A model generated the notes under the pieces. That model was given only the letters and a program-made list of their open reading frames with translations. It searched no databases and was not told where the DNA came from. Shown in pieces: positions 1,860 through 26,063 of a stretch of DNA of 64,000 nucleotides. Made by a program: the position numbers and the translations under genes. The DNA is taken from positions 1 to 64,000 of the forward strand of contig JACRQG010000032.1 of assembly GCA_016222805.1 (NCBI GenBank), in the 5' to 3' direction. The DNA comes from Verrucomicrobiota bacterium (GTDB taxonomy: Bacteria > Verrucomicrobiota > Verrucomicrobiia > Opitutales > Opitutaceae). How positions within the stretch are numbered: the stretch's first letter is position 1; every line of letters starts with the position of its first letter.

Positions 1860-3082
1860 GGCCGCTCCAGCAGCGTATTGCCCTCGATCGTGTTGTCGGG
1901 CGCGGCGTCGACCTTGATCAACCGGTCCTTCACCCCGGTGATGGAGTTCCTCGTGATGCGGTTGCGGTACGGTGCGACGGTGCACTCCATCACCGCATTC
2001 GCGAACCACGGCTTGCCGGCCCACTTCTGGTCGACGTGCCGGGCGTTCTTCGCATCGCCGACCAGAATCCCGGCCTTGCCGCAGTCGGTGACGGTGTTCT
2101 CCGCGATCACGCAGTCGTAAACCGGCAGGTACGAGGCGGGGTGCTTGAGGTCGGGCGTGCCAAAATAGAGCCGGATGCCGGTGCCGCGGCAGCGGACCAT
2201 GGTGTTGCCGGTGACAATGTGACCGTGGCCCGAGATCCGGATGCCGCCACTTCCACCCTCGAAGTGATTTCCGGTGAGGGTGTTCTCGTGTCCGTGGCGC
2301 ATCACCAACTCACCCTGGCAGTCCCGAAAGCGATTGTTGCGGATCGTGTTTCCAGAGGTCTTCACGCTGATGATCTCCGCCTCACCGTCGCAACGGATGA
2401 ACTCGTTGTCCTCCACGATCGTTTCCGGGCGCAGGTCGCTGTGGGGAATGGCGCGCTGGCCAATCTGGATCGTCTCGGCGCCGTTGGCCTTCAGGGGCGG
2501 CACGTCCTGGAAGAGGTTGTGATCGATCCGGTTGCGCCGCGGCGGCCCGGCCTTGAGCGCCTGGTCATCGACGACCACGACGACGCAGCGGTACCGGGTC
2601 TGCAGGAAGCGGCAGTGATCCACGCGATTGTCGCGGGCGCCATTGCGGAAGGAGACGACCGCCACGCCGCCGGGGAGGGTCGAACGTTCGAAGGTGCAGC
2701 CGGTCACCCGGCTGTGGGCGGCACCGTTGAAGTTCACCGCGCCCCGGGTGCCCGGCTTGAAGGTGCAACCGCGGAACGCCAGGTCCTGGATGACGATGTG
2801 CTCCCCGGTCACCTCAAGACCCGGTGAGCCCGTCACCACGGCGCCGCCCGGACGCTCGGCCCGCAGCGTGATCGGCTGGGCGGCGGTGCCTTTGCCCGCG
2901 AGCTTGAGGGTGAGGTCCGGGTATTCGCCGTCGGCCAGGACAACTTCATCGCCGGCGATGGCGCGCGCGGCCGCCGCGGTCGCCTCGGCGGGGTTCGCGA
3001 CCCGCAACGTGGCGGCGCCGGCGAGGGTGGCGGCGCAAGTGAAGGTGAAGCCCAGGCGGAAGTGGCGACACAGGGAGTTCAT
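1856..3082 (-). CDS. Polysaccharide lyase family 6 (alginate lyase / chondroitinase B type), 408 aa
   Basis: Secreted right-handed parallel beta-helix lyase, cleaving uronate-containing polysaccharide by beta-elimination. A signal peptide occupies about residues 1-24 (LGFTFTCAATLAGAATL). The PL6 catalytic pair is present: Lys241 in IISVKTSGNT and Arg262 in LVMRHGHENT. Their spacing of 21 equals the Lys250/Arg271 pair of chondroitinase B. Acidic residues in GAETIQIG and CDGEAEI are where the family binds calcium. Beta-helix rungs with N-ladder motifs (GNHFEGG, GNTMVRC, ENTVTDC, RNSITG) run to the C-terminus. Length is typical of a single-domain PL6. Alginate is the commonest PL6 substrate, but chondroitin or dermatan cannot be excluded. 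The TAG stop lies in a GTAG REP-like unit. Confidence 0.9.
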   Translation of the reverse strand: MNSLCRHFRLGFTFTCAATLAGAATLRVANPAEATAAAARAIAGDEVVLADGEYPDLTLKLAGKGTAAQPITLRAERPGGAVVTGSPGLEVTGEHIVIQDLAFRGCTFKPGTRGAVNFNGAAHSRVTGCTFERSTLPGGVAVVSFRNGARDNRVDHCRFLQTRYRCVVVVVDDQALKAGPPRRNRIDHNLFQDVPPLKANGAETIQIGQRAIPHSDLRPETIVEDNEFIRCDGEAEIISVKTSGNTIRNNRFRDCQGELVMRHGHENTLTGNHFEGGSGGIRISGHGHIVTGNTMVRCRGTGIRLYFGTPDLKHPASYLPVYDCVIAENTVTDCGKAGILVGDAKNARHVDQKWAGKPWFANAVMECTVAPYRNRITRNSITGVKDRLIKVDAAPDNTIEGNTLLERP

Positions 3083-3169
3083 CGGGAAAGGTTGTCAGCC
3101 GGTGGCGGCAAAATGCCAACCGGGGAAAACAAACGTGTCCTCATCGCTTCCTTTCGCGACGGCACTCTT

Positions 3170-3340
3170 GTCGCCGGGGTCGGTGACCCCGGCCGGCACG
3201 ATTGACCTCCTGATCGAGGCCGGCCTCATCGCGGCCGGCTACACCATGCCCGGTCTCGTCGATTCACGTCGTCCGGAGATGGCCTGTGTGCGGGGCGGGG
3301 TCGCCCCGCCTACACCGCCGGGCTCATCGCGCCCGGCTAC
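3170..3340. repeat. Cluster of four REP units in two pairs
   Basis: Four 24-base units occupy the gap. The unit at 3170-3193 (GTCGCCGGGGTCGGTGACCC...) is a one-base variant of the GTAGCCGGGG type; 3219-3242 is its inverted mate, reading GTAGCCGGCC on minus. Unit 3290-3313 is the second sequence type, reading GTAGGCGGGGCGACCCCGCC on minus. Unit 3317-3340, reading GTAGCCGGGC on minus, overlaps the end of the DUF1643 gene and supplies its TAG. Each is a GTAG-like foot plus a hairpin. Confidence 0.8.
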
Positions 3341-3855
3341 AGCGTGGCGTCCGCGTGCCCCTGGGCTTGGGGCGCCGCCGGCGTCCAGGGCACGAGCGGC
3401 TGCCGGGCGGCGACGTAGAGCGGGTGGCGCGGGTGCCCCTCCTGCGTCGTGCCCAGGCACCAGAGGGAACGGCCGGCGAAGAGGCGCACCACGGCGTCCG
3501 CCCGCGCCTGATACACTCCGCTGGCGCCCCAGGCGGCGACGATGCGCTCGCAACGCTCCGCGGCGGCGAGCAGCGCGGCGTCGTTCTCCGGTCCGACGGG
3601 ATCGGCGGCGGACCTCATCTCCTCCGGATACGGCGTGCGCAGCGCGAAGAGGTTGGCCATCCAGAAGCCGTCGAAACCCTCGCGTTTGGAGAACGCGGCG
3701 ATGCGCGTGAGCGTGGGGTCGAGCTGCGCCTCGTCGGCGGTGCTTGGGTTGAGCCCAATCCAGAGGATGAGCCGGTCGCCGAAGAGCGGGTTCCAGCGAT
3801 GGATGAGCGAGTACCGGTGCCGGCGATCCGGGGAAAAGTGGCAGGCGTTGTCCAT
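3337..3855 (-). CDS. DUF1643 domain-containing protein, 172 aa
   Basis: Small cytosolic protein of unknown biochemical role. The family signature is clear: an N-terminal RYSLIHRWNP, then ILWIGLNPSTADEAQLDPT, then WMANLFALRTPYPEEM, and a late segment with LGTTQEGHPRHPLYV. Length is normal for the family. The start is taken at ATG 3855; a GTG two codons upstream is also possible. It is 22 bases downstream of the SNF2 helicase stop on the same strand, so the two may share a transcript. Its TAG stop is the TAG of an overlapping GTAG REP unit. No enzyme activity should be assumed. Confidence 0.88.
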   Translation of the reverse strand: MDNACHFSPDRRHRYSLIHRWNPLFGDRLILWIGLNPSTADEAQLDPTLTRIAAFSKREGFDGFWMANLFALRTPYPEEMRSAADPVGPENDAALLAAAERCERIVAAWGASGVYQARADAVVRLFAGRSLWCLGTTQEGHPRHPLYVAARQPLVPWTPAAPQAQGHADATL

Positions 3856-3876
3856 CGGCACGGCGGATACTCTCGG

Positions 3877-6800
3877 CTAGGCAAGGATCGTCTGCAGGCT
3901 TTCGAGGTCGAGCACGCTGGCGAGCGACTCCTCCTGGACGACGGCGCCAGCGAGGGCGGCCTTTTCCCGCTGGAGGGTGCGGATCTTCTCCTCGACGGTC
4001 CCGCGGGCGATCAGGCGATAGGCCGTGACCGGAAGCGACTGCCCGATGCGGTGGGTGCGATCGATCGCCTGGGCCTCGACCGCGGGATTCCACCAGGGGT
4101 CGTAGAGAATCACATAGCTCGCGGCGGTGAGGTTGAGGCCAAAGCCCGCGGCCTTGAGGGAAAGCAGGAAGACCGTGTGGCGTTTCTCCGCCTGAAACTG
4201 CTGCACGAGCTGATCGCGATCCTCGGTCTGTCCGGTGATCATCAGGTGCTCGATACCGGCGGTCGCAAGGCGGTTCCGGATAATCTCCAGCATCGAGACG
4301 AACTGGCTGAAGACGAGGACCTGGTGGCCCTCGTCGCGCAGCTCCTCGAGGCGCTCCATCAGTTCGTCGAGCTTGGCGGAGGGGGCGCCTTCGTGGGCGG
4401 CGGCGATCAGGACGGGGTGGCAGCAGATCTGCCGGAGGCGCAGGAGGCTCGCCAGGAGGTTGAAACGCGCCTGGTCGAATTCGCGCGGGGTGGAAACCTG
4501 CAGCAGCATCGCCCGGGCGCGCTTGAGTTCGGCGTCGTAGAGCCTGCGCTGTTCGCCCTCGAGATCGACGACCACATCCTCCTCGGTGCGGGCCGGCAGG
4601 TCCGACGCCACCTGGGCCTTGGTGCGACGCAGGAGAAAGTGACGCACGCGAGCCCGCAGCCGGGGCAGGGCCAGGGGGTTGTCGTCGGCATAGTGCCGCT
4701 TGAAGGCGGTCTGGGTGCCGAGCAGGCCGGGGAGGGCGAAGGCAAACAGGCTCCAGAGGTCGAGCAGGCGGTTTTCGATTGGCGTGCCCGTGAGCACGAG
4801 CCGGTGCTCGCCCGGGAGGTCCCGGGCCACCTGCGCGACCCGGGCCGACGGGGTCTTGATGAACTGGCCTTCGTCGAGGATCACGGCCTGCCAGCGCTGC
4901 GCGGTGAAGAACTCGGCGTTGAGGCGGAGCTGCGCGTAGTTCGCGACGACCAGGGTCGGCGGCGGGGCGTCCGCGGTCTCCAGCGCGAGTCCCGGCGTGT
5001 AGCGCACGGTGGCGAGCGTGGGTGCGAAGCGTGCCGTCTCGGCGACCCAGTTGCCCATCACGGTCTTGGGGCAGACCACGAGGGCGCGAAACGCCTGATC
5101 GCGCGGCGCCTCCCCGGCGAGCCAGAGCAGCCAGGCGAGGGCCTGGACGGTTTTGCCGAGGCCCATGTCGTCGGCGAGGATGCCGCCGAGCCGATTGGCG
5201 GACAGAAAGGAGAGGAAGTGAAAGCCCTCGCGCTGGTAAGGGCGCAACTCGGCGCGCAGGTCCGCTGGCAGCGGCGGCGGCTCGGGACGGGTGAGTTCCC
5301 GGGCCCGGGCGCGCAGGGCGGCCGCGTGGCGCTCGGGCAGATGCGCGGCGATCGCACTCTGGGCGAGCTGCAGGGCATGCAGCCGGTGCTTTTCGCCCGC
5401 GAAGGCAGCCTCCGCGAGCGAGTCGGGATCGAAGCCTGCGGAGGCGAGCGCGGAGGCCGCCGCCTCGTCAAGTTGCACCGCGAGCCGGCGCCAGCCCTTG
5501 CCCGGCAGCCGCACGGGCCTGCCGCGGGCCTTGAGCAAGAGGGCGATCTCCTCCGCGGTCAGGGTCGAGTCCTCCGGCCGGAGCGCGAGGGCGAGGTCGA
5601 ACCAGTCGCGGTGGGCGTGGTTCTCCACCAGGGAAAAATCCACGCGGGCGTGCACCGGTGCGCCCAGGAGCGAGGCGAGTTCGCCCGAGGCAATCACCTC
5701 CACCTCCGCCGGCAGGGCCTCGCGCCAGGCGAGAAACTCCTCCGCGAAGGCGCGGGTGACCTTGCGGGTCCAGGCATCCTGGAAGGAATCGAACCGGAGT
5801 TTGAGGGCAGGCAGCCGCGCGGCGATCTCCGCGGGGAGACTGAAGGAGTAGTCGTACGTCTCCCCGCCGGGCGCGGACTCGGTCAGCCCGCGTCGCCCAA
5901 CGTCGCGCCAACCGCCGCTGGTCCATGTCTGCTGCGCCGGGGGTTGATCGGAAAAGGCGTGGAGGTGGGCCACGAAGTGCTCGCCGCCGTCGTCCGCCGG
6001 ATGGAGGGAGCACTCGAGGCGCGCGCGGAGGCGGACCGGGATCAATCGCGCGATGATCTCCGGAGGCAATTGCGTGCCGAATTGCCGCAGCGTCCGCAGC
6101 ACCGCGGGCTTGGTCACCACCTCGATCGGAAGGACCGCCCCCGCCGGCGAACTGCCATCCAGCGCCGGCGGACCGGCATAGACCACACTGCGGTGCAAGT
6201 AGAGTTCGGGTGTGCCGCCGAGCCGGAGGGCCGCTGGCGGCAGCGGGGTGCCGTCGGGCAGTTGCAGCGAGAGCTCGAAGTCGCCCGACCCGTCGGGACT
6301 GGGAACGAGCCGCCAGGTGATCGGACTCGAGGAGAAGGTAATCGGTCCGCCTCCGGCATCCACGATGGCGCCGCGGGCGCGTGGATGGGCCAGCAGTGTG
6401 GACAGGAAGCTCCGGGCCTCGGGATGGCCGGGATCGAAGGAGAGGTAATAGTGGCGTTTGTAGTGATCAGCGCAGAGGGCGAGCAGGGCGACCACTTCCG
6501 GCGACGCCACCAGATCCGCGAAGGCGGCGGGACCGTCCAGGATAAAGGCGTCCACCAGGCGCGAAGGCGCCTCCTTCCACGGCTGTTCGGGCGACGGCCT
6601 GGTTTCGAAAATCCACTTCTCGGCCGTCAGGCGAAGCCGGAGATCCAGCGGCGTGGCCGCGGCGGGCTCCGGGAGCGGGGTCGGCAGACGCGCCGGCGGT
6701 TGGGTGGCGATCCTGTCGAAGCGCTGGGTCCAGCGTTGTATTGCCTCGCGCCGCTGCCGCCCACGCAGCCACCTGGCGATCGACGTGGTGTCGGTGACCG

Positions 6801-7506
6801 GTTGGAGGAACTCGGGGACCGGCTGACCCGAAGACTCGAGGTCGTAGGCGAGGTACTGCCAGAGTTCGAGCGGGCTGGCGGGTGGTTTCTCCCACCAACC
6901 GGCGAAGGCGTGCTCCCAATGACCCAGGCGCGCTTCGTGGGTGTTGAAACCGAGGCGTGCCAACTCGTGCGCCGACACTCGGCCGTTTTGGCGGAAGTTG
7001 TGGTACAGCTCTGACAGCCGACCCAGGAACGCCCCTTCCTCGGCCGTCAGCGGCCGGCCGAGCTTCTCTTTCAGGATCTTCTGGTACTCCTGGCGAAACG
7101 TGACCTTGGGTGGCGCAGCGGGAGCAAATTCGCCGGCGAGGCGTTCGTCCTCGAGGCGCACGCGCTGCGAGTGGATCGCCGGCGGCCGCGGCGGGGCCCC
7201 GCGCTGCTGCCGCCGCCGCTCGATCCACTCGAACGCCAGGGCCGCGGAATGTTCGCAGCCGTCGGGCAATCCGCACGTACATTCGCCGATCCAGCCGGTG
7301 GACGTGCGTGTCAGGCGCACATCGAAGTCCCGCTGGTTGGCTAGCACCTGGCCAGCCAGGGTGCACTCATCGACCCGGCGGAAATCGCGCACCCGTCCGC
7401 CGAACTGGTGGGCGCGCCCGCGATCGCGGGCGTGACCCTCGACCTCGCCCAGGTAGAGGAGCAGCGTCCCGATCGAGTCGGGTGCGTCGAGGTTTGGCTG
7501 GCCCAT
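3877..7506 (-). CDS. SWIM zinc-finger SNF2-family DNA helicase/ATPase, 1209 aa
   Basis: Large SWI2/SNF2 ATPase that presumably moves along duplex DNA or remodels nucleoprotein, as in the bacterial RapA/HepA branch. A SWIM zinc finger lies near residues 72-86 (CTCGLPDGCEH). A long alpha/beta middle region without recognised motifs follows. The helicase core starts near residue 740: PYQREGFHFL (Q-like), DDMGLGKTVQALAW (motif I), a DEGQ box in VILDEGQFIK (motif II, DEAH-like), LTGTPIENRL (motif III), then the C-terminal RecA fold with VFSQFVSML, SLKAAGFGLNLTAA (motif V) and DRTHRIGQ (motif VI). All catalytic motifs look intact. Length is normal for bacterial SWIM-SNF2 proteins. It is probably co-transcribed with DUF1643. 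Confidence 0.93.
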   Translation of the reverse strand: MGQPNLDAPDSIGTLLLYLGEVEGHARDRGRAHQFGGRVRDFRRVDECTLAGQVLANQRDFDVRLTRTSTGWIGECTCGLPDGCEHSAALAFEWIERRRQQRGAPPRPPAIHSQRVRLEDERLAGEFAPAAPPKVTFRQEYQKILKEKLGRPLTAEEGAFLGRLSELYHNFRQNGRVSAHELARLGFNTHEARLGHWEHAFAGWWEKPPASPLELWQYLAYDLESSGQPVPEFLQPVTDTTSIARWLRGRQRREAIQRWTQRFDRIATQPPARLPTPLPEPAAATPLDLRLRLTAEKWIFETRPSPEQPWKEAPSRLVDAFILDGPAAFADLVASPEVVALLALCADHYKRHYYLSFDPGHPEARSFLSTLLAHPRARGAIVDAGGGPITFSSSPITWRLVPSPDGSGDFELSLQLPDGTPLPPAALRLGGTPELYLHRSVVYAGPPALDGSSPAGAVLPIEVVTKPAVLRTLRQFGTQLPPEIIARLIPVRLRARLECSLHPADDGGEHFVAHLHAFSDQPPAQQTWTSGGWRDVGRRGLTESAPGGETYDYSFSLPAEIAARLPALKLRFDSFQDAWTRKVTRAFAEEFLAWREALPAEVEVIASGELASLLGAPVHARVDFSLVENHAHRDWFDLALALRPEDSTLTAEEIALLLKARGRPVRLPGKGWRRLAVQLDEAAASALASAGFDPDSLAEAAFAGEKHRLHALQLAQSAIAAHLPERHAAALRARARELTRPEPPPLPADLRAELRPYQREGFHFLSFLSANRLGGILADDMGLGKTVQALAWLLWLAGEAPRDQAFRALVVCPKTVMGNWVAETARFAPTLATVRYTPGLALETADAPPPTLVVANYAQLRLNAEFFTAQRWQAVILDEGQFIKTPSARVAQVARDLPGEHRLVLTGTPIENRLLDLWSLFAFALPGLLGTQTAFKRHYADDNPLALPRLRARVRHFLLRRTKAQVASDLPARTEEDVVVDLEGEQRRLYDAELKRARAMLLQVSTPREFDQARFNLLASLLRLRQICCHPVLIAAAHEGAPSAKLDELMERLEELRDEGHQVLVFSQFVSMLEIIRNRLATAGIEHLMITGQTEDRDQLVQQFQAEKRHTVFLLSLKAAGFGLNLTAASYVILYDPWWNPAVEAQAIDRTHRIGQSLPVTAYRLIARGTVEEKIRTLQREKAALAGAVVQEESLASVLDLESLQTILA

Positions 7507-7605
7507 CGCGGCTACGGAAGCAGAGCAGTACCCGCGCGGTCAAACCGGCAGGCACGCACTGATGCCGAAGGAACGGGTGACTCCGATGCGAACCGCTTCG
7601 CCGGT

Positions 7606-9132
7606 TCAGTACACCTTCTCGTCGAGCAGGGCGAAGAGTTCGGCCTCGGTGATGCGCTTCTGCTGCATCGAGTCGCGTTCGCGCAGGGTGAAGGTGCCAT
7701 CCTTCTCGATCGTGTCGAAGTCGATGGTGACGCACCAGGGCGTGCCGATTTCATCCTGGCGGCGGTACCGGCGGCCGATCGCGCCACCCTCGTCGTAAAA
7801 CACCGCGTACTTGCGCTTGAGTTTCGCGTGGAGTTCCTTCGCGCGGGCGACGAGGGCTTCCTTGTTCTTCAGGAGCGGCAGCACGGCGACCTTGACGGGC
7901 GCGATGCGGGGCGAGAGCCGGAGCACGGTGCGCTTCTCGACGTTGCCCTTCTCGTCCTTCACGTCCTCCTCGGCATAACCGGCACAGAGGACGGCGAGCA
8001 GGATGCGATCGACGCCCACGGCGGGCTCGATCACGTGCGGCACCACCTTCTGCTTCGTCGCCTCGTCGAAGTAGACCTGCGGCACACCCGAGAACTGCTG
8101 GTGCTGCTTGAGATCGTAGTCGCTGCGCGCGGCGATTCCCCAGAGTTCCTGTACGCCGAACGGGTACTGGAACATGATGTCGACCGTGCGGCGCGAGTAG
8201 AACGCGAGCTTGGCCTTGGGATGCTCGTGGAGCGAAAGGTGCGACTCGGGCAGGCCGATCGAGATGAGCCACTGGCGGCACCAGGCCAGCCACTCCTCGT
8301 GGCACTTCAGCCAGTCGGCATCCGGGTGGATGAAGTACTCCATCTCCATCTGCTCGAATTCGCGCGAGCGGAAGATGAAGTTGCGCGGCGTGATCTCGTT
8401 GCGGAAGGACTTGCCGATTTGCGCGATGCCGAAGGGCAGCTTCACCCGGCCGGTGTCGACCACGTTTTTGAAGTCCACGAACATGCCCTGCGCCGTTTCC
8501 GGACGCAGGTAGGCCACGGCGGAGGCGTCGCGCATCGCCCCGACGTAGGTCTCGAACATCATGTTGAACGCCCGCGGCGGCGTCAGGCTGCCGGGCTCGC
8601 CGGTGGCGGGCGACGGGATCAGGGAAACCTCCTCGGGTGTCGCCTCGGTGAAGTCCTTGGGCGCGACCGGGGCGAGGGCGCCCTGGATGGCCTTCTTGCG
8701 CTTGAAGTTCTCGGCGGCGGCCTGGAGGTCGGCGGCGGTCTTCTCGCTCTCGAGCGCGCTCACGTAGCCGACGGTCTTGCCGTCCACCACCACCGCGGCG
8801 AAGTAGAGCTGGTCGGCGCGGTAGCGCTGCTTGCTCACCTTGCAGTCAACGAGCGGGTCGGTGAAGCCGGCGACGTGGCCCGACGCCTCCCAGACCTTGG
8901 GGTGCATGATGATCGACGTCTCGACGCCCACGATGTCCTCGCGGCGGCGCACCATGTCGTTCCACCAGCAGTCGCGGATGTTCTTCTTCAGCTCCGAACC
9001 GAGGGGGCCGTAATCAAAGAAGCCGTTGAGCCCGCCATAGATTTCGGACGACTGGAAGATGAAGCCCCGGCGCTTGGCGAGCGCGACGATGGCATCCATG
9101 GAGACGGCGGGAGCGGCGGGTTCGGCGGACAT
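7606..9132 (-). CDS. glyS: Glycyl-tRNA synthetase, alpha2 (single-chain) type
   Basis: Charges tRNA-Gly with glycine using ATP; class II synthetase of the homodimeric kind found in archaea, eukaryotes and some bacteria rather than the two-gene alpha2beta2 kind. Start [20 protein letters not shown] at 9132; an upstream ATG at 9171 adds 13 weak residues. The N-terminus has the family block [20 protein letters not shown]. Motif 2 is [19 protein letters not shown], motif 3 is in [18 protein letters not shown]-terminal anticodon-binding domain ([20 protein letters not shown]) and the terminal [20 protein letters not shown] block complete the protein, about 508 aa, the usual length. It is a housekeeping gene; the upstream divergent neighbour is the Do-family protease. 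Confidence 0.95.
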
Positions 9133-17395: not shown

Positions 17396-17419
17396 GGGAT
17401 CCCCTTCCGCCCGGGCTAC
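17396..17419 (-). repeat. GTAG unit at the convergent ends of two genes
   Basis: On minus it reads GTAGCCCGGGCGGAAGGGGA and ends in the palindrome GGGGATCCCC. Its TAG is the stop codon of the nucleotidyltransferase-kinase gene. The GTAGCCCGGG foot is the same as at 1859. Confidence 0.5.
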
Positions 17420-18519
17420 CGCGCCGCCACGTAAGGTTCGATCGGCCGGAAGCCGGGGAGACGGCAGGCCGCGTCCCGCGCGGCCGGGTCGTTGAACAGG
17501 TACACGGCGTAACCGCCGAAACCCCCGCCGCAGTATTTCCAGGCGAGGGCACCGGCCATGGTCTCTCCCGAAGCCGGGTCCCCGGGGAGTGGGCACATTC
17601 CCTCCGCCCGCTGCACGGCGTAGGACTGCCGCACCGCGTCCGCGAGACCGGAAACGTCGTTGTTCCAGACGGCGTTGCGCGCGGTCAGCCCGGCGCGCGC
17701 GATGGCCTCGTAGTCGCGGGCCCCGTCGACCATCGCCGGCGTGTCATGGGGCGCGCCCGTCCAAAGCAGGGCCATGCGCCCGCGCAGGAGTTGCCCGTCC
17801 GACTTCACTTCGAGGACCGGCCGCGGGCCGCTCCGCCAGGCACACAGCCCGGTCTCGGCCACGACCGCCGGATCCTGCCAGCCCACCCCGAGATCGAGTT
17901 CGGAGCCAATCCCGTCGCGGCCATTCAGCAGGGCCCAGGCGCCGGAGCCGCCCAGGCCGGCGTTGCGCTCGTAGGGCCAGTCGCGCAGCGACACGGTCGG
18001 GGAAATGGCGCAGTTGACGATGTACGCGCCGGCCCGGGCCAGCCGCGGGACGTCGAGCCAGCCGCCGCCAAAGTCCACCCTCAGAGGCGCCTCTTCCGGG
18101 GCGCGGATGAAGCGCACGATCTGCGTGGTCGACACCGGTGGAAACTGCGGGGGGGTCTTTGGCATCACGACGTATTTCGCCCCCACCTCCGCGCACAGCG
18201 CCCGCTTCAAGGGGCCGTACTTGTCGTCTTCCGTCACCGCCAGGATGTCCGGCCGCAGCCGCAGGAAGTGCTCCCGGAAGTCGATCCCCTCCTCCAGCCC
18301 CGTGCCAACCACCACGTCGTCCACCACCCGCAGGGCGGCGATCAGCGCGCGCTTGTGTTCATCCGGGAGTGAACTCCGCCGGTGCTTGTGGATCCAGAGG
18401 ACCTCCGCCGAGGCGAAACACACGGTCAGGTGGTCACCCAGGGCCCGCGCCTCCGTGAAGAACTGCACGTGGCCCGCGTGGAGGATGTCGTAGCACCCGG
18501 AGACAAAGACGCGAATCAT
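17416..18519 (-). CDS. Fused nucleotidyltransferase (HldE-C type) and GHMP sugar kinase (HddA-like), 367 aa
   Basis: Two domains in one chain. Residues 1-138 are a cytidylyltransferase-like fold: FVSGCYDILHAGHVQFFTEA contains the HxGH nucleotide-binding site (14-17), and VSTTQIV (129-135) is the STTxI-type second motif, closest in feel to the HldE C-terminal domain. Residues 140-367 are a compact GHMP kinase: APLRVDFGGGWLDVP resembles the APLRxSxxGGGTD start of HddA heptose-7-phosphate kinases, NAGLGGSGAW is the GHMP phosphate loop, and KYCGGGFGGYAVYLF is motif 3. The kinase half is shorter than free GHMP kinases. By analogy it would phosphorylate a sugar at C1 and then add a nucleotide, building an activated heptose or similar; this is inference. 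The gene ends at a GTAG unit and is divergent from the pseudopilin. Confidence 0.75.
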   Translation of the reverse strand: MIRVFVSGCYDILHAGHVQFFTEARALGDHLTVCFASAEVLWIHKHRRSSLPDEHKRALIAALRVVDDVVVGTGLEEGIDFREHFLRLRPDILAVTEDDKYGPLKRALCAEVGAKYVVMPKTPPQFPPVSTTQIVRFIRAPEEAPLRVDFGGGWLDVPRLARAGAYIVNCAISPTVSLRDWPYERNAGLGGSGAWALLNGRDGIGSELDLGVGWQDPAVVAETGLCAWRSGPRPVLEVKSDGQLLRGRMALLWTGAPHDTPAMVDGARDYEAIARAGLTARNAVWNNDVSGLADAVRQSYAVQRAEGMCPLPGDPASGETMAGALAWKYCGGGFGGYAVYLFNDPAARDAACRLPGFRPIEPYVAAR

Positions 18520-18753: not shown

Positions 18754-19290
18754 ATGCCCAGACGCCTGCACCGCCTCTCCGACGGTGGCATCCCCTCCCG
18801 CGGGGGAATCGCCTCCGGGCGAGGGTTTTCGATTGTCGAGATCATGGTGGCGCTGACGATCATCAGCCTGCTGGTGGCTGCGGCGATTCCGCAGGTGAAG
18901 AAGTATCAGGTGAACTCCCGCGCCGCCGTGGTCGCCTCCGACCTGCGCACGTTCGCCGCGGCCTTCGAGAGCTATTCGCAGGAGAAGGGGGCCTGGCCGG
19001 CCGAGACCGACGCCGGCGCGTTGCCGCCCGAGATGACAGAGCGGCTCGGGGCCAGCAGCTGGGGCCGGGTCACGCCGATGGGCGGCCGTTACAACTGGGA
19101 GAACAACCAGATGCACGGCGGCGTCCGCTACCGCGCTGCGCTCTCCATCAGCGAAGCCGAGGGAGCCCCGCTGGAGGTGAACGAGGATCTCCTGCGCGCC
19201 ATCGACCGCATCATTGACGACGGCAACCTTTCCACCGGGCTCTTCCGCACCGGGGTGAACAACGATCCGCTGTACATCCTTCTGCAATGA
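18754..19290 (+). CDS. Type II/IV pseudopilin-like protein, 178 aa
   Basis: Prepilin-like protein made with a leader cut by a prepilin peptidase. The cleavage context is ASGRG before FSIVEIMVALTIISLLVAAA: Gly at -1, Phe at +1 and the conserved Glu at +5, then the hydrophobic N-terminal helix. The mature part has GtGx-like pseudopilin features (SYSQEKGAWPAE, GRYNWENNQ, DRIIDDGNL). The start at 18754 gives a leader of about 28 residues; an in-frame ATG at 18637 would make an unlikely long one. The stop overlaps the next start by four bases (ATGA), so it is translationally coupled to the one-pass membrane protein. No secretin or ATPase gene lies nearby, so this is a dispersed pilin-type gene. 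Confidence 0.85.
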   Translation: MPRRLHRLSDGGIPSRGGIASGRGFSIVEIMVALTIISLLVAAAIPQVKKYQVNSRAAVVASDLRTFAAAFESYSQEKGAWPAETDAGALPPEMTERLGASSWGRVTPMGGRYNWENNQMHGGVRYRAALSISEAEGAPLEVNEDLLRAIDRIIDDGNLSTGLFRTGVNNDPLYILLQ

Positions 19291-20081
19291 GCCAGCCGGA
19301 ACCGACTTTCGTTGTCGTCTTCAAACAACTCGGCCCCGACGCCAAGTCGGCGGGGCTGGAGTTGGGAGAGACGGAGCGGGCGGATGTCTCCGGCCGGGAA
19401 CTTCGGAGCCTGCTGCGCAATGCCGGATCGCTGGCGCCGCGCGTGACCTACCCGCTCACCCCGGAGCTGCGCATCACCGCCGCCAGCGGGCGGTATGTCG
19501 TGCAACTCAAGGACGGGCGCCTGCACTTCATCTCGTGGTCTTCCGCCAAGTCCCGGGGCGGCAATCCCACGGCGGATCAGATTTTCGAGATCATCACCGG
19601 GGCGGAGACGCCGGAGGAAAAGGCGCCGGCCGCCGCCGCCACTCCGGCTTCCCGTCCGGGCACGTCCGGCAGCTCCAGTGGTTCCTGGCGCTGGGTCGTG
19701 GGGATCCTCCTCGCGATCGCGTTCGTCGGGATCAATTTCTACACCATCTGGAACTACCGGAAGCCGCCGGGGAAACTCCTGCCGCCTTTCCGCCTGCTGG
19801 AAGAGGGTCCGGACAAGCGCCTCCTGGAGAGCGTGGCCGGCCAGTACGAAACCGGCAATGCCGCCGGGGACCGCCGCCTGGAGATCTCCCGCGACGGCAA
19901 GATCGTGTGGATCAAATTCGGGCTCAACCGCCTGGCCGCCGAGCGTCGGGAGTTCACCGCCCAGGGTGCCGAAAGCGAAGGCCAGCCGGCGCTCTTCACC
20001 AGCCGAAGCAGTCTGATCAAGGTCAAGGACCAAGCGACGCTGGTGCTCTTCGGCGATACCTATCTGCGGGTCCTGCGATAG
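19287..20081 (+). CDS. Unrecognised one-pass membrane protein, 264 aa
   Basis: I do not recognise this family. Residues 1-105 look globular and cytosolic (ADVSGRELRSLLRNAG, GRYVVQLKDGRLHFISWSS). An Ala/Pro/Ser linker at 113-132 leads to one membrane span near 134-156 (WRWVVGILLAIAFVGINFYT), and about 100 residues follow outside (LEISRDGKIVWIKFGLNR, VKDQATLVLFGDTYLRVL), with repeated beta-strand character. It overlaps the pseudopilin by four bases and the ATP-grasp gene starts ten bases after its stop, so the three form one transcription unit. A role as an assembly or anchoring partner of the pseudopilin is possible but unsupported. Confidence 0.7.
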   Translation: MSQPEPTFVVVFKQLGPDAKSAGLELGETERADVSGRELRSLLRNAGSLAPRVTYPLTPELRITAASGRYVVQLKDGRLHFISWSSAKSRGGNPTADQIFEIITGAETPEEKAPAAAATPASRPGTSGSSSGSWRWVVGILLAIAFVGINFYTIWNYRKPPGKLLPPFRLLEEGPDKRLLESVAGQYETGNAAGDRRLEISRDGKIVWIKFGLNRLAAERREFTAQGAESEGQPALFTSRSSLIKVKDQATLVLFGDTYLRVLR

Positions 20082-20090
20082 CAGGCGCGC

Positions 20091-21104
20091 ATGAAGGTCG
20101 CCCTTCTGCACAATCTGCGGCCGGCCGAGGGCACGCGCCAACGGCCCGACGATTGGTACGAGGAGTACGACTGCGCAGAGACCTTGCAGGCCATCCAGGC
20201 CGCCCTGGCCCCGCTGGCTACGGAGGTCATCCCCGTGCCGGCCGACCGGGATTTGCCCGCCCGGCTGGCCGCGGGAAAGTTCGACTTCGCTTTCAACCTC
20301 GCGGAGGGGTGCGGACGCCGCTGTCGCGAAGCGGTCCCCGCCGCCGTCTGCGAACTGCTGGATCTACCCTACACCGGGTCCGATCCACTCACCTTGGCGG
20401 TGGCGCTGGACAAGGCCGTCGCCAAGCGAGTGGTTTCGCCCGAGGTGCCCGTGGCCCGCGGCCTCGTCCTCGAGGAGGGCGCGCTGCCCGAACCGGCGTT
20501 GCTCCCGGACTTCCCCGTCATCGTCAAACCCAACGATGAAGGCTCCAGCAAAGGCATCCGCGGCGAACCGGTGGTCCATGACCCGGCCGCCCTGGCCGCC
20601 ATCTGCCGGCACCTGCACGAGGACTACCGCTGTCCGGTGCTGATCGAGGAGTTCCTGCCCGGCGCCGAAGTCACGGTGGGGGTTCTCGGCCACGGCCGCA
20701 CCAGCCGCGTACTCGGCCAGATGGAGATCGCGCCGGTGGCGGGCCCGATCGAGACGTTCGCCTATACCCTCGAAGTGAAGCGCGACTGGCGGCGGCGGGT
20801 GCGCTACCACGTGCCGCCCCGGCTGCCCGAAGCCACCCGACAGCGCCTGGACGAGCTCGCGCTGACCGCCCACCGGTTGCTGGGCTGCCGCGATTGTGCG
20901 CGCCTGGACTTCCGCCTCGATGCCCGCGGCGAACCCCGCTTCCTCGAGTGCAACCCGCTGCCGGGCCTCAACCCGGAGAGCGGCGATCTCGTGCTCCTTG
21001 CGCGTCCCGGGCTCGACCATGCGCAATTGGTCCAGGCGATCTTTCGCGAGGCCCTCGCCCGCACCGGGGTGCGCCCGCCCACGCGCCTCGCGGCCGCGGG
21101 CTGA
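20091..21104 (+). CDS. ATP-grasp ligase, D-Ala-D-Ala ligase-like, copy 1, 337 aa
   Basis: Carboxylate-amine ligase fold: ATP activates a carboxylate as acyl-phosphate for attack by an amine. It starts MKVALLHNLRPAE, the same opening as the second copy at 22454. The N-domain has FDFAFNLAEGCGRR (Ddl N-domain EG), the central part has FPVIVKPNDEGSSKGI (ATP-binding Lys and small loop), VLIEEFLPGAEVTVGVL (hinge and omega region), and the metal site ARLDFRLDARGEPRFLECNP with LPGLNP. This is a D-Ala-D-Ala ligase relative, but the omega-loop and N-domain differ from a housekeeping Ddl and there are two copies beside a SET gene, so an unusual peptide-like product is more likely than cell-wall D-Ala-D-Ala. 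It is co-directional with the pseudopilin pair and ends six bases before the convergent SET gene. Confidence 0.8.
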   Translation: MKVALLHNLRPAEGTRQRPDDWYEEYDCAETLQAIQAALAPLATEVIPVPADRDLPARLAAGKFDFAFNLAEGCGRRCREAVPAAVCELLDLPYTGSDPLTLAVALDKAVAKRVVSPEVPVARGLVLEEGALPEPALLPDFPVIVKPNDEGSSKGIRGEPVVHDPAALAAICRHLHEDYRCPVLIEEFLPGAEVTVGVLGHGRTSRVLGQMEIAPVAGPIETFAYTLEVKRDWRRRVRYHVPPRLPEATRQRLDELALTAHRLLGCRDCARLDFRLDARGEPRFLECNPLPGLNPESGDLVLLARPGLDHAQLVQAIFREALARTGVRPPTRLAAAG

Positions 21105-21109
21105 AGGCC

Positions 21110-21505
21110 CTACACCCCGTCGCCATCGACGTGGAACCAGACCGGCGTGCGATCGTGGGGCGTTCCGTTGTAGTTAACCGTAATCTCCTCGCCCGCCGCG
21201 ATGTCGCGCAGGGCGACATACTCGATCGTCAGCTGGTCGTACCTTCGCACGTAACCGGCATTCGGCTGGTACGAGTGATTGTAGAACGAACCGTAGCCCA
21301 TCACGAGGGCCTCGCCTCCGTCGCCCCAGTTGTAGGGAAGATCACCGAGCACGGTCCCCGCGATCCGCTCGCACTGGTGGGCGGGAATCGGCACCACGGG
21401 GGCCGCTTCGATCCGCTCGCCTTTCGCCAGCGGCACCCGGGCAAACACTCCCCGGCCCCGGGCCCCGGCGGCGCGCACCTCGATCCGTAGCTCAGGCGGC
21501 GGCAT
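21110..21505 (-). CDS. Small SET-domain protein, 131 aa
   Basis: Minimal SET-domain protein, a fold that transfers a methyl group from S-adenosylmethionine, usually to lysine. The N-terminal AGARGRGVFARVPLAKGERI matches SET motif I (GxG and the following strand). Motif III is FYNHSYQPNAGY (NHSxxPN, residues 76-82). Motif IV is AGEEITVNYNG (GEEIxxxY, 104-113), carrying the catalytic Tyr. There is no pre-SET or cysteine-rich post-SET region. Its start overlaps the end of the ATP-grasp gene by 14 bases, a sign of translational coupling. A methylation target is not visible; a product of the neighbouring ligases is as plausible as a protein. The start is fixed by the overlap and by motif I lying close to it. 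Confidence 0.85.
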   Translation of the reverse strand: MPPPELRIEVRAAGARGRGVFARVPLAKGERIEAAPVVPIPAHQCERIAGTVLGDLPYNWGDGGEALVMGYGSFYNHSYQPNAGYVRRYDQLTIEYVALRDIAAGEEITVNYNGTPHDRTPVWFHVDGDGV

Positions 21506-22454
21506 GGGAAATCAGGTGGGCGATGACCTCGCCATAGCTCCGGCCGGCGACCCGCGCGGCGACGAAGATCGACGAGCCCGGCTCCAGGGAGGGCGTGGCA
21601 TTGGCTTCGACGAAAAACACCTCCCCGTCATCGCGCACCCGGAAATCCAGCCGGGCGAGCCCGCGCAGTCCCAGCGCCTTCACCGCGCTCTGCGCGTGCC
21701 GCGCCACCACCTGACGGATTTCCGGTGGCACCCGGGCCGGGCACACCGGCTGCACCACCTCGTCCGGGGCGACGTTCTTCAGCCGGTAGTCGTAGATGCG
21801 ATACCGGTTCATCCAGGCCGCCGCGATCTCGTAGCTGCACGGCGTGAGAATCTCCGGATCCTGCCCTTCCACGAATCCGATCGTGACATCCGTGCCGGGG
21901 ACGAACTGCTCGACCAGGATCCCCTCGGGGTAAAGGGCGAGCCCTGCGGCCAGGGCCGCCTCGAGGCCGACGCGTTCCGCGACCACCGACTGTTCGGAGA
22001 TTCCCTTCGAACTCCCCTCGAAGTTCGGCTTCACGAACCAGGGACCGGGAGGCAGGGCCGGGTCACCGTGGCCGGCGCGGACGAGGCCGCCCGGAATCAC
22101 CGGCACGCCGGCGGCGGCCACGCACAGCTTGGTGAGGTGCTTGTCCTGCGTGAGCACCTGCACGCGGGCCCCCGATCCCGTGAAACGCAGGCCCAGGGCC
22201 TCCAGCACCGCCGGCACGAGCGCTGTCCGGGCCTCGCCCCGGAGGCCTTCCGCGGAATTGAGCACCACGGCCGGCCGCAGTTCCCACAGGCGCGCCGTCC
22301 AGGTTTCAATTGAACCCGAAACCTCAACCGGCACGGCGTCGTGCCCCGCCTCGGCCACCGCCCGGCACAACGCGGCGATCGTCTCCGGCGTGTCGAACTC
22401 CGCCTCGGCCTCCTCGGCCGTGCGGCGCAGGTTGTGCGTCAGGGCCACCTTCAT
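21492..22454 (-). CDS. ATP-grasp ligase, D-Ala-D-Ala ligase-like, copy 2, 320 aa
   Basis: Paralogue of the plus-strand copy, also beginning MKVALTHNLRR. Ddl-like elements: AVVLNSAEGLRGEART (N-domain), PWFVKPNFEGSSKGIS (ATP-binding), GILVEQFVPGTDVTIGFVEG (hinge region) and LARLDFRVRDDGEVFFVEAN with ATPSLEPGSS (metal-binding Glu/Asn and C-terminal loop). The catalytic ATP-grasp set looks intact. Its ATG overlaps the ABC transporter stop by four bases (ATGA) and its own end overlaps the SET start by 14 bases, so ABC - ATP-grasp - SET is one coupled operon. Two different ligases in one locus suggest two successive couplings or two substrates. A role in making a small peptide exported by the ABC protein is inference. 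Confidence 0.82.
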   Translation of the reverse strand: MKVALTHNLRRTAEEAEAEFDTPETIAALCRAVAEAGHDAVPVEVSGSIETWTARLWELRPAVVLNSAEGLRGEARTALVPAVLEALGLRFTGSGARVQVLTQDKHLTKLCVAAAGVPVIPGGLVRAGHGDPALPPGPWFVKPNFEGSSKGISEQSVVAERVGLEAALAAGLALYPEGILVEQFVPGTDVTIGFVEGQDPEILTPCSYEIAAAWMNRYRIYDYRLKNVAPDEVVQPVCPARVPPEIRQVVARHAQSAVKALGLRGLARLDFRVRDDGEVFFVEANATPSLEPGSSIFVAARVAGRSYGEVIAHLISHAAA

Positions 22455-24658
22455 TCCCCACCTCCCGCCGCGTCTCGCCCGGATTCGCGCGGGGCCGTCA
22501 GGCGGGCGCGGATCTGCGGCACCCGCTGCAGGAGGCGGTCGAAGTGCCGCCGGCGCAGCGAGAGCAGGATCGCCGGCGTCACGGTGGTCACGGTGGCCGT
22601 GCGCGGCACCGCGCTGATCAAGGCGATCTCCCCGAAGTAGTCGCCGTCATCCAGCATCGCCACGGTCTCCTCGCCGCCGTCGGCGCGCCGCCGGCTCACC
22701 CGCACCTTGCCCCGCGCGATGATGTAGAAGCGATCGCCGGGTTCGCCCTCCTGCACCACTCCACGCCCGGCGGCGTAGACCTCCGTGACCAGCAGGCCGG
22801 CCAGATCGGCGAGAATGGCGTCGTCGAGTTCCTGCAGGATCGGAAAGCGGCGCAGGCGTTCCGGCTGGATTTCCGCCTGGTCGCCGGAATCGCTCAGCGA
22901 GAAGCCACTTTGCTTCTGCCAGAGTTCGGCATAGCGGCCACGACGCGCCAGGAGTTCGGCGTGGCGACCGCTCTCGATCACCCGGCCGCCCGCGAAGACA
23001 TGGATGCGATCCGCATGGACGATGGCCGCCAGGCGGTGCGTCACCGCCAGGACGGTGCGCCCGTGGGCGACGGTGCGGAGGGTGGCGTTCACCGACTCCT
23101 CCGTGGCCGGGTCGAGGGCGGACGTCGCCTCGTCGAGGACCAGGATGGCGGGATTCCGCAGCAGGGCCCGGGCGATGGCGATCCGCTGGCGCTGGCCGCC
23201 CGACAGGTGGGAGCCACGTTCCCCGGCCGGCGTGTCGTAGCCCTGCGGCAGGGCGGTGATCGCCTCATGGATCTCCGCCGCCCGCGCCGCGGACTCCACC
23301 TCGGCGTCGGTCGCCTCCGGCCGACCCAGGCGGATGTTCTCGCGGATGCTCACGTTGAACAGGAGGTTCTCCTGGAACACGACCCCCAGGCGCGCCCGCA
23401 GGGTCGGGCGTGGAATCTGGCGGATGTCGACCCCATCGAGGTGGACCGCGCCCTCGCGGATCTCGTAGAACCGCAGCAGCAGGTTGAGCGCCGTGCTTTT
23501 CCCCGATCCGCTGCCTCCCACCAGGGCGACATACGCCCCCGCCGGCACATCGAAGCTCACTTCCTCGAGGCTGGGCCGCGCACCGTCGTAGCTGAAGGTG
23601 ACCCGGTCGAACGTCACGGCCCCGCCACCCGCCGGAACCGTTCCCGCGCCGGCGGCTGGCTCTGGTGTCGGGGCCTCGTCCGCGGGTTCGGCGAGCAACT
23701 CCTCGATGCGCTGCACGCCTCCCATCGACTGCAGCAGGGCCGGCACCACGGTGGTCAGGCCCTCGATCGAGGAACTGAGGTTCAGGAACAACGCATGAAA
23801 GGCCACCACGGTGCCCAGCGTGAGGTCGCCGTAGAACACGAGCAGGATGCCGCCCCCCATCACGATCACCTCGGTGATCAGGATGACGACATTGGGGGTG
23901 CGCTCGGTGAGGTTCGACTGAAAGTAGAACTGCCGCGCCACGGTCGACCAGCGGAGCGACTCGCGGACAAACGTCGCGATGGAGCGCCCTTCGAGTCCAA
24001 ATGCCTTTACCGCCGGCTGCGCCGTCACGTTCTCCTGCAATCCGCTCGCGAGGTCCGCCTCGACCCGCTTCTTCTCGTAACCCACCTCGCCGGCCCGATC
24101 GGAAAAACGGCGGGGCGCCAGCACACATACCACCAGGCCGACGAGCGTCGCCAGGGCGAGCCGCCACTCGAGCGTGAAAAGCACGACCGCGCTGACCGCG
24201 ACATTCGTCGCATTCAACACCAGGCTCGCCATCACCCAGCTCAGCGAATTCTCCAGGGCCGCCAGATCCGTGGTGAACCGCCCCATGATATCGCCGGTGC
24301 GGGTGCGCGCAAAGAAGCCCACCGCGAGGCCCTGCAGGTGCGCGAAAGCGCGCGCGCGCACGTCGTGCATCACCCGGGCGCCCACATCCGCGTAGAAGTA
24401 GTCCCGCACCACCGCGCACGCCATCGCGAGGACCACCGCCACGAGGAGCGCGCCCAGGCTGGCGAACAGCACCGGCCCGTTGCGCTCGCCGACCGCATGA
24501 TCGATCAGGAACTTGAAGCTCAGCGGCCACGCCGTCTTGAACGCCACATCCACCCCGAGCAGCAGCAGAAGCACGAAGGCCTTGCCGCGATGGGGACGCA
24601 GGTAGCGGGCGAACGTTCGCAGGAACCCGCCGAATCCCATGACGTGCTGGTGCGGCAT
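22451..24658 (-). CDS. ABC exporter half-transporter with C-terminal cyclic-nucleotide-binding domain, 735 aa
   Basis: Type IV ABC exporter fused to a cNMP-binding domain. About residues 15-310 are a six-span ABC transmembrane domain (KAFVLLLLLGVDVAFKTAWP; ALLVAVVLAMACAVVRDYF; LEWRLALATLVGLVVCVLAP). The nucleotide-binding domain, about 335-575, has Walker A GGSGSGKST, Q-loop VVFQENLLFNVS, signature LSGGQRQRIAIARAL, Walker B ILVLDEATSALD and switch VTHRL. Residues about 600-715 form the cNMP domain with GDRFYIIARGKVRVS and the phosphate-binding cassette FGEIALISAVPRTATV. The start at 24658 (MPHQHVMG) precedes the first amphipathic segment; an ATG six codons later is an alternative. It is the first gene of the ABC / ATP-grasp / SET operon. 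The fusion suggests transport gated by cAMP, cGMP or a related nucleotide. Confidence 0.9.
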   Translation of the reverse strand: MPHQHVMGFGGFLRTFARYLRPHRGKAFVLLLLLGVDVAFKTAWPLSFKFLIDHAVGERNGPVLFASLGALLVAVVLAMACAVVRDYFYADVGARVMHDVRARAFAHLQGLAVGFFARTRTGDIMGRFTTDLAALENSLSWVMASLVLNATNVAVSAVVLFTLEWRLALATLVGLVVCVLAPRRFSDRAGEVGYEKKRVEADLASGLQENVTAQPAVKAFGLEGRSIATFVRESLRWSTVARQFYFQSNLTERTPNVVILITEVIVMGGGILLVFYGDLTLGTVVAFHALFLNLSSSIEGLTTVVPALLQSMGGVQRIEELLAEPADEAPTPEPAAGAGTVPAGGGAVTFDRVTFSYDGARPSLEEVSFDVPAGAYVALVGGSGSGKSTALNLLLRFYEIREGAVHLDGVDIRQIPRPTLRARLGVVFQENLLFNVSIRENIRLGRPEATDAEVESAARAAEIHEAITALPQGYDTPAGERGSHLSGGQRQRIAIARALLRNPAILVLDEATSALDPATEESVNATLRTVAHGRTVLAVTHRLAAIVHADRIHVFAGGRVIESGRHAELLARRGRYAELWQKQSGFSLSDSGDQAEIQPERLRRFPILQELDDAILADLAGLLVTEVYAAGRGVVQEGEPGDRFYIIARGKVRVSRRRADGGEETVAMLDDGDYFGEIALISAVPRTATVTTVTPAILLSLRRRHFDRLLQRVPQIRARLTAPRESGRDAAGGGE

Positions 24659-24809
24659 CAACAGCCGGAGGATTGTCCCCCGCCGCAGGCGGGCAACGCA
24701 TTTTCGTTTCCGCCACCACGCGCCAACGACGGAGCCAGACCCGGCCGACCACGGCGCCGACGGCCGGTTTGGCGTTGGCCACCCACCGGTGGCGTGCTTG
24801 CGTGAACCC

Positions 24810-26063
24810 ATGCACATCGACTCGTCCGACCTGCTCGATCGTTTCTGCCGCTACGTCCAGATCGACACCCGCAGTGATCCGCACTCGACGACCACGCCGA
24901 GCACGCCCGGCCAGTGGAACCTGCTGCGCCTGCTGGAACAGGAAGTGCGCGCCATCGGCGCCAGCGACGTGACGATCACCGAGCACGGATATGTGCTCGC
25001 GACGATTCCCGCCACCACGCGCCGCGCCGGCGTGCCCACCCTCGCCTGGTTCGCGCACGCCGACACCGCCACCGAACTGCCAGGGGACGCCCGGCCCATC
25101 GTCCACCGCGCCTACGACGGACGGCCGATCGTCCTGCCCGACGACCCGAGCCAGGTGCTCACGGTCGAAAACACCCCGCATCTCCGGGAGGCCATCGGCG
25201 AGGATGTCGTCACGGCCAGCGGCACGACGCTGCTGGGAGCCGACGACAAGGCCGGGGTCGCCATCGTGATGGCCGCCGCCCGTCACCTGCTGCGGCACCC
25301 GGAAATCCCCCATGGGAAGATCCGGCTTTGCTTCAATCCCGACGAGGAGATCGGCCGCGGCGTGATCAAACTCGATCTCGCCCAGCTCGGCGCGGACGTC
25401 GGTTACACCCTGGACAGCGGGACCCGGGGCGAGGTGGACTTTGAGACCTTTTCCGCCGACGGCGCGGTCGTGGAGATCCGGGGGGTGGCCGCGCATCCGG
25501 GCTGGGCGAAGGACGTCATGGTCAATGCGCTTCGCCTCGCGGGGCGCTTCGTCGCGGCGCTGCCCGCGGATGTTTCGCCGGAGGCCACCGCCGGACGCGA
25601 CGGCTTCGTGCATCCGACGGAGATCACCGGCAACAGCGAACGCGCGACGGTGCGGATGATCCTCCGCGATTTCGAACTCGACGGGCTCGCCGGGAAGCGC
25701 GCGATCGTCGAGCGGGTCGCGGCCGAACTGCGGGCGGCCGAACCCCGCGCACGCGTCACCGTCACCTTCAGCGAGCAGTACCGGAACATGCGCTACTGGC
25801 TGGAAAAAGACCTGCTACCGGTGGACTTCGCCCTCGAGGCGGTGCGCCGGGCCGGCGTGAAGCCGTTTACCGAGGCGGTGCGCGGCGGCACCGATGGTTC
25901 CCGCCTCACGGCGCGCGGGCTGCCCACGCCGAATCTCTTCACCGGCATGCACGAGGTGCACAGCCAGCGTGAATGGGTCACGGTGCAGGACATGACCCGC
26001 GCCACCGCCATGTTGCTGCATCTCGCCCAACTCTGGGAGGAACGCGGCGCCCCGCCGGCCTGA
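24810..26063 (+). CDS. pepT: Peptidase T (tripeptide aminopeptidase), M20 family, 417 aa
   Basis: Zinc aminopeptidase that removes the N-terminal residue from tripeptides in the cytosol. The M20 metal ligands and catalytic residues are in place: WFAHADTATE (His, Asp), LLGADDKAGVAIVM (Asp bridging metals), NPDEEIGRGV (catalytic Glu and metal Glu), YTLDSGTRGEVDFETFSAD (Asp) and FTGMHEVHSQREW (terminal His). The PepT-specific KPQIH-like and YDGG-like stretch appears as RPIVHRAYDGRPIVL. The dimerisation domain covers about 215-320. Length is normal. It starts about 150 bases from, and divergent to, the ABC exporter; the start at 24810 is the first ATG before the conserved LLDRFCRYVQIDTRSD. It may process peptides but nothing ties it firmly to the neighbouring operon. 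Confidence 0.92.
   Translation: MHIDSSDLLDRFCRYVQIDTRSDPHSTTTPSTPGQWNLLRLLEQEVRAIGASDVTITEHGYVLATIPATTRRAGVPTLAWFAHADTATELPGDARPIVHRAYDGRPIVLPDDPSQVLTVENTPHLREAIGEDVVTASGTTLLGADDKAGVAIVMAAARHLLRHPEIPHGKIRLCFNPDEEIGRGVIKLDLAQLGADVGYTLDSGTRGEVDFETFSADGAVVEIRGVAAHPGWAKDVMVNALRLAGRFVAALPADVSPEATAGRDGFVHPTEITGNSERATVRMILRDFELDGLAGKRAIVERVAAELRAAEPRARVTVTFSEQYRNMRYWLEKDLLPVDFALEAVRRAGVKPFTEAVRGGTDGSRLTARGLPTPNLFTGMHEVHSQREWVTVQDMTRATAMLLHLAQLWEERGAPPA

Follow-up and report, generated by a model that had tools for sequence, protein, structure and literature searches.

Among described enzymes, the D-Ala-D-Ala ligases (Ddl) and the Van ligases are the best PDB and NCBIfam relatives of the two ATP-grasp ligases reported here, A1 and A2, which lie with a SET-domain protein and an ATP-binding cassette (ABC) exporter in a locus of a Verrucomicrobiota bacterium (Opitutaceae; assembly GCA_016222805.1, contig JACRQG010000032.1, positions 1 to 64,000; this whole 64,000-nucleotide stretch is called the window). 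Iyer and others are said to have predicted, in 2009, operons in which ATP-grasp amidoligases stand with modifying enzymes and transporters, and the window ligases likewise have a modifying enzyme and a transporter beside them. A further point of comparison is the AblA/AblB system for the osmolyte N-epsilon-acetyl-beta-lysine, in which AblB is presumably GNAT-type and in which we know of no ATP-grasp ligase. That system (PMC9337991) has an aminomutase and a GNAT-type acetyltransferase in common with cassettes found around relatives of A1 and A2. The nearest counterpart of the pair is a fused two-domain ligase: comparison of the translated proteins gives good support for A1 and A2 being the equivalents of its C- and N-halves, respectively. 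Our best explanation, which we hold at slightly better than even confidence, is that the locus encodes a split two-domain amide ligase that uses diamino or beta-amino acids, on a probable acquired island, with methylation and export added locally.

The probable island comprises four genes:

20091..21104, + strand: A1, ATP-grasp ligase of the Ddl superfamily (337 amino acids; N-terminus MKVALLHNLR; PF07478, 93.5 bits)
21110..21505, − strand: SET, small SET-domain lysine methyltransferase-like protein (131 amino acids; PF00856, 56.7 bits)
21492..22454, − strand: A2, ATP-grasp ligase of the Ddl superfamily (320 amino acids; N-terminus MKVALTHNLR; PF07478, 94.3 bits)
22451..24658, − strand: ABC, MsbA-like exporter half-transporter with a C-terminal cyclic-nucleotide-binding domain (PF00664, PF00005 and PF00027)

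All reported domains of the four proteins exceed the Pfam curated cut-offs, and the gene and domain observation is confirmed as far beyond chance. The original prediction had given this layout, and its four genes, their coordinates and the same-strand overlaps of their open frames (4 bases for ABC/A2 and 14 bases for A2/SET) stand; the stops of the convergent genes A1 and SET are 5 bases apart, not the six it had counted. Its reading of both ligases as Ddl relatives that begin MKVALxHNLR was borne out by the translations and by the PF07478 scores. The overlaps suggest that ABC, A2 and SET form one operon. For ABC, the longest frame runs over 22451-24817 on the − strand (788 amino acids); an alternative ATG can be read from the DNA at 24658, and the membrane domain together with the position of this ATG makes it the more likely start, which is also the one taken in the original prediction.

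The relationship between A1 and A2 was explored by a collection scan with an A2-led alignment, from which the best 80 of 539 confirmed loci, ranked by likeness to A2, were taken; gene calls in the fetched loci were simple longest-frame picks, and contig ends cut off the flanks of many. An A2-type domain followed by an A1-type domain in one frame without a stop was found in 72 of the 80, mostly from Myxococcota and Bdellovibrionota, a count that is not an unbiased rate given that many of the loci come from related Myxococcota. Among the remaining eight, L179 has the A1-type domain in another frame and seven have no A1-type domain that we could find, five of these seven carrying A2 in one frame with a peptidase of family S58. 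The fused A2-A1 proteins are about 650-760 amino acids long. In 26 of 26 fused proteins tested, window A2 scored higher on the N-half (mean 222 versus 153 bits) and window A1 on the C-half (mean 205 versus 139 bits). Identity is 36-46% between A2 and the N-halves and 34-45% between A1 and the C-halves, with A1 reaching 45% on the C-half of L120; A1 and A2 share 34% identity. The claim that the two ligases belong together thus holds, and the notion that they are chance neighbours of one another was rejected on the one-frame fusions and the half-to-half matches. The window differs from the fused proteins in having the halves as separate convergent genes, no S58 neighbour, and SET and ABC in addition.

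Phylogenetic placement was examined in two trees. The second, of 69 rows, covered 26 of the 80 loci (26 A2 halves and 23 A1 halves) together with 15 ligase rows from the same phylum. Here, window A2 grouped with 23 A2 halves (support 99/97), nearest to three halves (98/94) that include one from Planctomycetaceae and another from Bdellovibrionota. Window A1 was drawn with ligases that are mostly aminomutase-linked (94/74), while by path the rows closest to it were A1 halves; two of the nine rows counted as aminomutase-linked no. 1 ligases (L096 and L102) come from loci whose fetched DNA gave no match to aminomutase. In the first tree, from which fused proteins were absent, A1 fell in a set of 22 rows with the no. 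1 ligases of aminomutase-type cassettes (98/89).

The divergence of the pair from Ddl was examined at the level of the family models, the genome and the active site. The best NCBIfam Ddl model, PRK01372, gave 142 and 129 bits for the window ligases against a cut-off of 243; among the fused relatives, L168 passes the D-Ala-D-Ala ligase models PRK01372 and TIGR01205 by summing both halves. The genome carries six matches to Dala_Dala_lig_C, the strongest on a contig other than that of the window, and this protein joins the relatives' Ddl in a group that excludes A1 and A2 (100/99, first tree). A housekeeping Ddl role for A1 or A2 was therefore rejected, neither of them being the likely housekeeping enzyme, as the original prediction required. 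Active-site positions were mapped through the genome's own Ddl. The positions of K97, K144, E180, K215, R255, D257, E270 and N272, whose numbering and roles we take from Escherichia coli DdlB, are retained in both A1 and A2, and the ATP-grasp fold, the ATP and Mg residues and the Arg255 and Ser150 positions are shared with Ddl. By contrast, the omega-loop Tyr216 position holds Asn in A2 and Arg in A1, and Tyr occurs there in 0/26 A2 halves and 0/23 A1 halves of the fused relatives. The suggested check of the ligases against D-Ala-D-Ala residues is thus answered in two parts, with the ATP and metal positions kept and the Tyr216 position changed in both. The Tyr216 and Leu282 positions are both altered in 26/26 A2 halves, 23/23 A1 halves and both window enzymes, which also differ from Ddl in the MKVALxHNLR N-terminal region. 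Asp stands in place of E187 in window A2 and 23/26 A2 halves, and in place of E15 in window A1 and 19/23 A1 halves. These shared changes point to kinship with the fused enzymes and argue against a D-Ala-D-Ala product, which is probably not what A1 or A2 makes, judging from the changed Tyr216 position and the low scores on the best Ddl model. As the Ser281 position disagrees, being Ser in window A1 and A2, aromatic in 23/23 A1 halves and Ala in 24/26 A2 halves, the specificity of the window pair may not be that of the fused enzymes.

These data bear directly on the possibility that A2 or A1 makes a variant cell-wall precursor, D-Ala-D-X, as Van-like self-protection beside an exporter. Kinship to Ddl and Van ligases speaks for this, as does UppP (BacA) after S58 in a few Bdellovibrionota-type loci; yet the scores lie far below the family cut-offs, the Tyr216 and Leu282 positions are changed throughout, both window ligases fall outside the housekeeping Ddl group, and no racemase, VanX-like or VanY-like protein was present among the seven window proteins scanned. 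We regard a cell-wall role as very improbable.

Genes beside the relatives offered hints to the substrate. Peptidase S58 (the beta-aminopeptidase family) was matched in 48/80 loci, and in 37 of the 43 S58 loci that have an A1 domain it lies at most 700 bases downstream of A2-A1 on the same strand. Among the 72 in-frame loci, S58 is present in 42 and absent from 23 despite sufficient DNA, and seven end too early to tell. GNAT and a further ATP-grasp gene accompany A2-A1 in L144 and L150 (2/80). In L132, L156, L166 and L168, two of which are named as Bdellovibrio kin, the order is arginase family, A2-A1, S58 and UppP, with a divergent ABC importer alongside (Pfam was run on one member per cluster). 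Downstream of S58 in L114, L122 (10269-11360, the copy scanned with Pfam), L125 and L179 is a glutathione-synthetase-like ATP-grasp gene, which may represent a third ligation step.

A second set of 39 loci from the same phylum (35 genomes), collected for A1 or A2 relatives, carries lysine 2,3-aminomutase in 23, GNAT in 20, an HDAC-like protein in eight and S58 in six; six have none of these four partners. Two Asp residues, presumably the binders of the lysine amine, are kept in the aminomutases of all 23 loci and also in the one aminomutase that the genome itself encodes. That enzyme lies on contig C13 and is of a type common in the order (49/57 genomes). Where lysine 2,3-aminomutase, GNAT and two ATP-grasp ligases form a cassette, the first ligase (ATP-grasp no. 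1) lies near window A1 in the first tree; unlike these cassettes, the window lacks an adjacent aminomutase, GNAT and a tandem second ligase, and its A2 belongs to another subgroup. Such cassettes (L074, L075, L076, L082, L083, L085, L087, L088, L098, L103, L104 and others), in which GNAT is sometimes fused to the second ligase and TetR is sometimes present, are likely to be acylated beta-lysine peptide systems. An ATP-grasp ligase and S58, mostly in one frame, are followed by an HDAC-like amidohydrolase in L066, L067, L069-L072, L182, L185 and L187, from Planctomycetes–Verrucomicrobia–Chlamydiae (PVC) bacteria and Marinilabilia, ligase and hydrolase being joined in one protein; in L078, a single frame (2588-4846, − strand) with HDAC-like and GNAT parts adjoins a ligase pair and an aminomutase. 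A relative of A2 with 30% identity is carried by the conjugative plasmid pTHIMO01 of Thioflavicoccus mobilis (L191), where positions 2656-8137 encode diaminobutyrate transaminase, SbnA, an ornithine cyclodeaminase-like protein, an ATP-grasp ligase and KamA, and include 2,3-diaminopropionate and diaminobutyrate genes; this plasmid region is a candidate peptide cluster using diamino acids. The S58, aminomutase, GNAT and diaminopropionate-gene partners together suggest a diamino or beta-amino acid substrate. For beta-lysine, the hint comes from the sister group, since no aminomutase is found in the 80 A2-A1 loci. No known RNA family (Rfam) was found in the window or in ten cassette loci.

The SET protein raises a different possibility. 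Its PF00856 score is well above the cut-off of 22.4 bits, and its translation holds the stretches NHSYQPN and GEEITVNY, which we take to be SET motifs. Where the function of a SET protein is known, it is mostly the methylation of lysines in proteins. The best PDB relatives of the window protein, 5h6z (SET domain-containing protein 7) and 1n3j (PBCV-1 viral methyltransferase), are by name protein lysine methyltransferases. A1 and A2 might accordingly add amino acids to the end or side chain of a protein, with SET methylating a lysine of the same target and the exporter being unrelated; a role of ATP-grasp enzymes in modifying proteins has been proposed (PMC4431377). Set against this are the partners of the relatives, which are metabolite enzymes (aminomutase, GNAT, S58 and arginase family), the lack of any conserved target protein noticed in neighbour clustering, and the absence of SET from all 119 relative loci. 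A protein target is therefore unlikely in our estimation.

SET was matched in 0/80 A2-A1 loci and 0/39 same-phylum loci, and no comparable ABC protein with a cyclic-nucleotide-binding domain was found in the fetched DNA of the 80; 17/80 match the ATPase part of the exporter only, and L166, the one scanned, encodes an importer. The notion of a conserved four-gene system is consequently not supported, the conserved partner being S58: the ligases are together in relatives, as had been proposed, whereas SET and ABC are not their neighbours there. The absence of SET from the 119 loci marks SET and the exporter as local additions. ABC itself matched ABC_membrane (112 bits), ABC_tran (119 bits) and cNMP_binding (80 bits), and its best NCBIfam model was MsbA_rel (407 bits, under the cut-off of 780). 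In PADLOC, A1, A2 and SET had no match and ABC had seven, of the ATPase type (for example, mad3, 108 bits) or the cyclic-nucleotide-binding type (35 bits or less, to effectors of TIR and Pycsar systems); no PADLOC system was present, the ABC matches were read as shared domains, and a known anti-phage defence system was rejected.

The ligase pair could accordingly be the real unit, with SET and ABC as chance neighbours in separate roles. The absence of SET from the 119 relative loci and of a comparable ABC from the 80 favours this, as does the observation of the window arrangement in a single genome; on the other side, the overlaps of ABC, A2 and SET on one strand resemble a translationally coupled operon, and neither A2 nor ABC was found in the same-genus genomes searched. 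We consider chance neighbourhood improbable, although the least so of the alternatives to a split amide ligase with local methylation and export.

Acquisition of the locus was assessed in related genomes, many of them incomplete. Whole-genome searches scored part of the first-look candidates (at most 18 per genome for the exporter, 5 for A2 in the class and 6 in the phylum, and 12 for SET), and the SET search covered fewer than all 26 same-genus genomes. No A1- or A2-type ligase and no such exporter were found in these 26 genomes: A2 gave only weak, Ddl-level matches in 24 (best E-value 3e-20), four of which were placed with Ddl in the tree, and none in two. At 1e-40, A2 was found in its own genome only among 384 class genomes sampled (0/383 others), and at 1e-100 the exporter had no match in 56 relatives. 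SET matched in 1/336 other phylum genomes, at 37% identity, with no other tested window gene near that match. The surroundings of the island are as follows:

24659..24815, no strand: divergent intergenic stretch between ABC and pepT, likely the promoter region of the ABC-A2-SET operon, from the judged starts
24816..26063, + strand: peptidase T (pepT), right-hand neighbour, native to the genus and judged outside the system
19287..20081, + strand: left-hand neighbour (264 amino acids), a genus-level accessory gene adjoining a prepilin-like gene, judged outside the system

With the start at 24658, about 157 bases separate ABC from pepT, and no sigma-70-like site was found in the 24659..24815 stretch. 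Copies of pepT with 73-80% identity occur in six same-genus genomes of 29 genomes searched, and A1, SET, A2 and full ABC had no match around them; peptidase T was therefore rejected as a member of the system. In 4/6 of these genomes, pepT is divergent to an oxidoreductase gene (window 15752). The left-hand neighbour has relatives in G003 (67%) and G025 (51%), beside the same prepilin-like gene, with no A1 within about 1.5 kb. A mis-binned contig is unlikely, as same-genus genomes hold matches of 49-85% to three of the neighbour genes. From these comparisons, A1-SET-A2-ABC is a probable acquired island. Repeats in the window gave nothing readable as an insertion site. Further to the left, the frame 17416-18519 begins with a nucleotidyltransferase-like HAGH stretch followed by a second part.

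For the split amide ligase, a two-step reaction can be proposed. By the mechanism of the family, each half would activate a carboxylate as the acyl phosphate and then couple it to an amine, so that the A2-A1 pair would form two successive amide bonds to give a small peptide-like product; as separate proteins, A1 and A2 could pair as Ddl subunits do. The substrate would most likely be a diamino or beta-amino acid such as lysine, beta-lysine, 2,3-diaminopropionate or ornithine, rather than D-Ala-D-Ala building blocks, an identity that we infer from partner genes and residues. SET might methylate the product, on a lysine-type side-chain amine, and ABC might export it. Cyclic-nucleotide control of the exporter is suggested by its cyclic-nucleotide-binding domain alone, and three class III cyclase matches in the genome make such control possible. 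A bolder version, in which SET methylates the side-chain amine of a small lysine- or beta-lysine-type peptide made by A2 and A1, in the amine-masking place that GNAT and an HDAC-like deacetylase would have in the aminomutase cassettes, and the cyclic-nucleotide-controlled exporter then releases it as a signal or toxin, is speculative and somewhat less probable still than a protein target. As a whole, the original interpretation, in which a small amide or peptide is built by two ligations, possibly methylated and exported under cyclic-nucleotide control, is partly supported.

Several observations weigh against a split diamino or beta-amino acid ligase on an acquired island. A1 and A2 are encoded separately and on opposite strands, A1 may be read from the gene that lies 10 bases before it, and A1 lacks a well-supported place in the second tree. 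S58 was not seen in 30/72 in-frame loci (seven of them without enough downstream DNA), and it had no match beside the window genes or elsewhere in the genome, which is 95.6% complete. Aminomutase was absent beside the window genes and had no match in the 80 A2-A1 loci, and the genome's own enzyme was rejected as a dedicated partner, being widespread in the order. As to acquisition, the GC content at third codon positions is alike in the island (0.83-0.88) and its flanks (0.85-0.89), and the reversed orientation of the oxidoreductase gene in the window indicates a rearranged site rather than a clean empty one. Finally, no biochemistry of any member was found in the literature.

Judged by titles and abstract openings, we recognized no description of the A2-A1-S58 or aminomutase cassettes, and our claim of novelty is limited in that the 2009 survey by Iyer and others is the most likely place for an earlier listing of such neighbourhoods. 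The locus links proteins that automatic annotation scores as D-Ala-D-Ala ligases to a probably widespread, uncharacterized family of two-step amide ligases that is tied to beta-aminopeptidases and, in its sister group, to lysine 2,3-aminomutase. The window copy, a natural splitting of the fused enzyme, could make it possible to assay the two ligation steps one at a time. If the proposed function is true, it would correct a likely mis-annotation and predict beta-peptide or diamino-acid metabolites in Myxococcota, Bdellovibrionota and Verrucomicrobiota.

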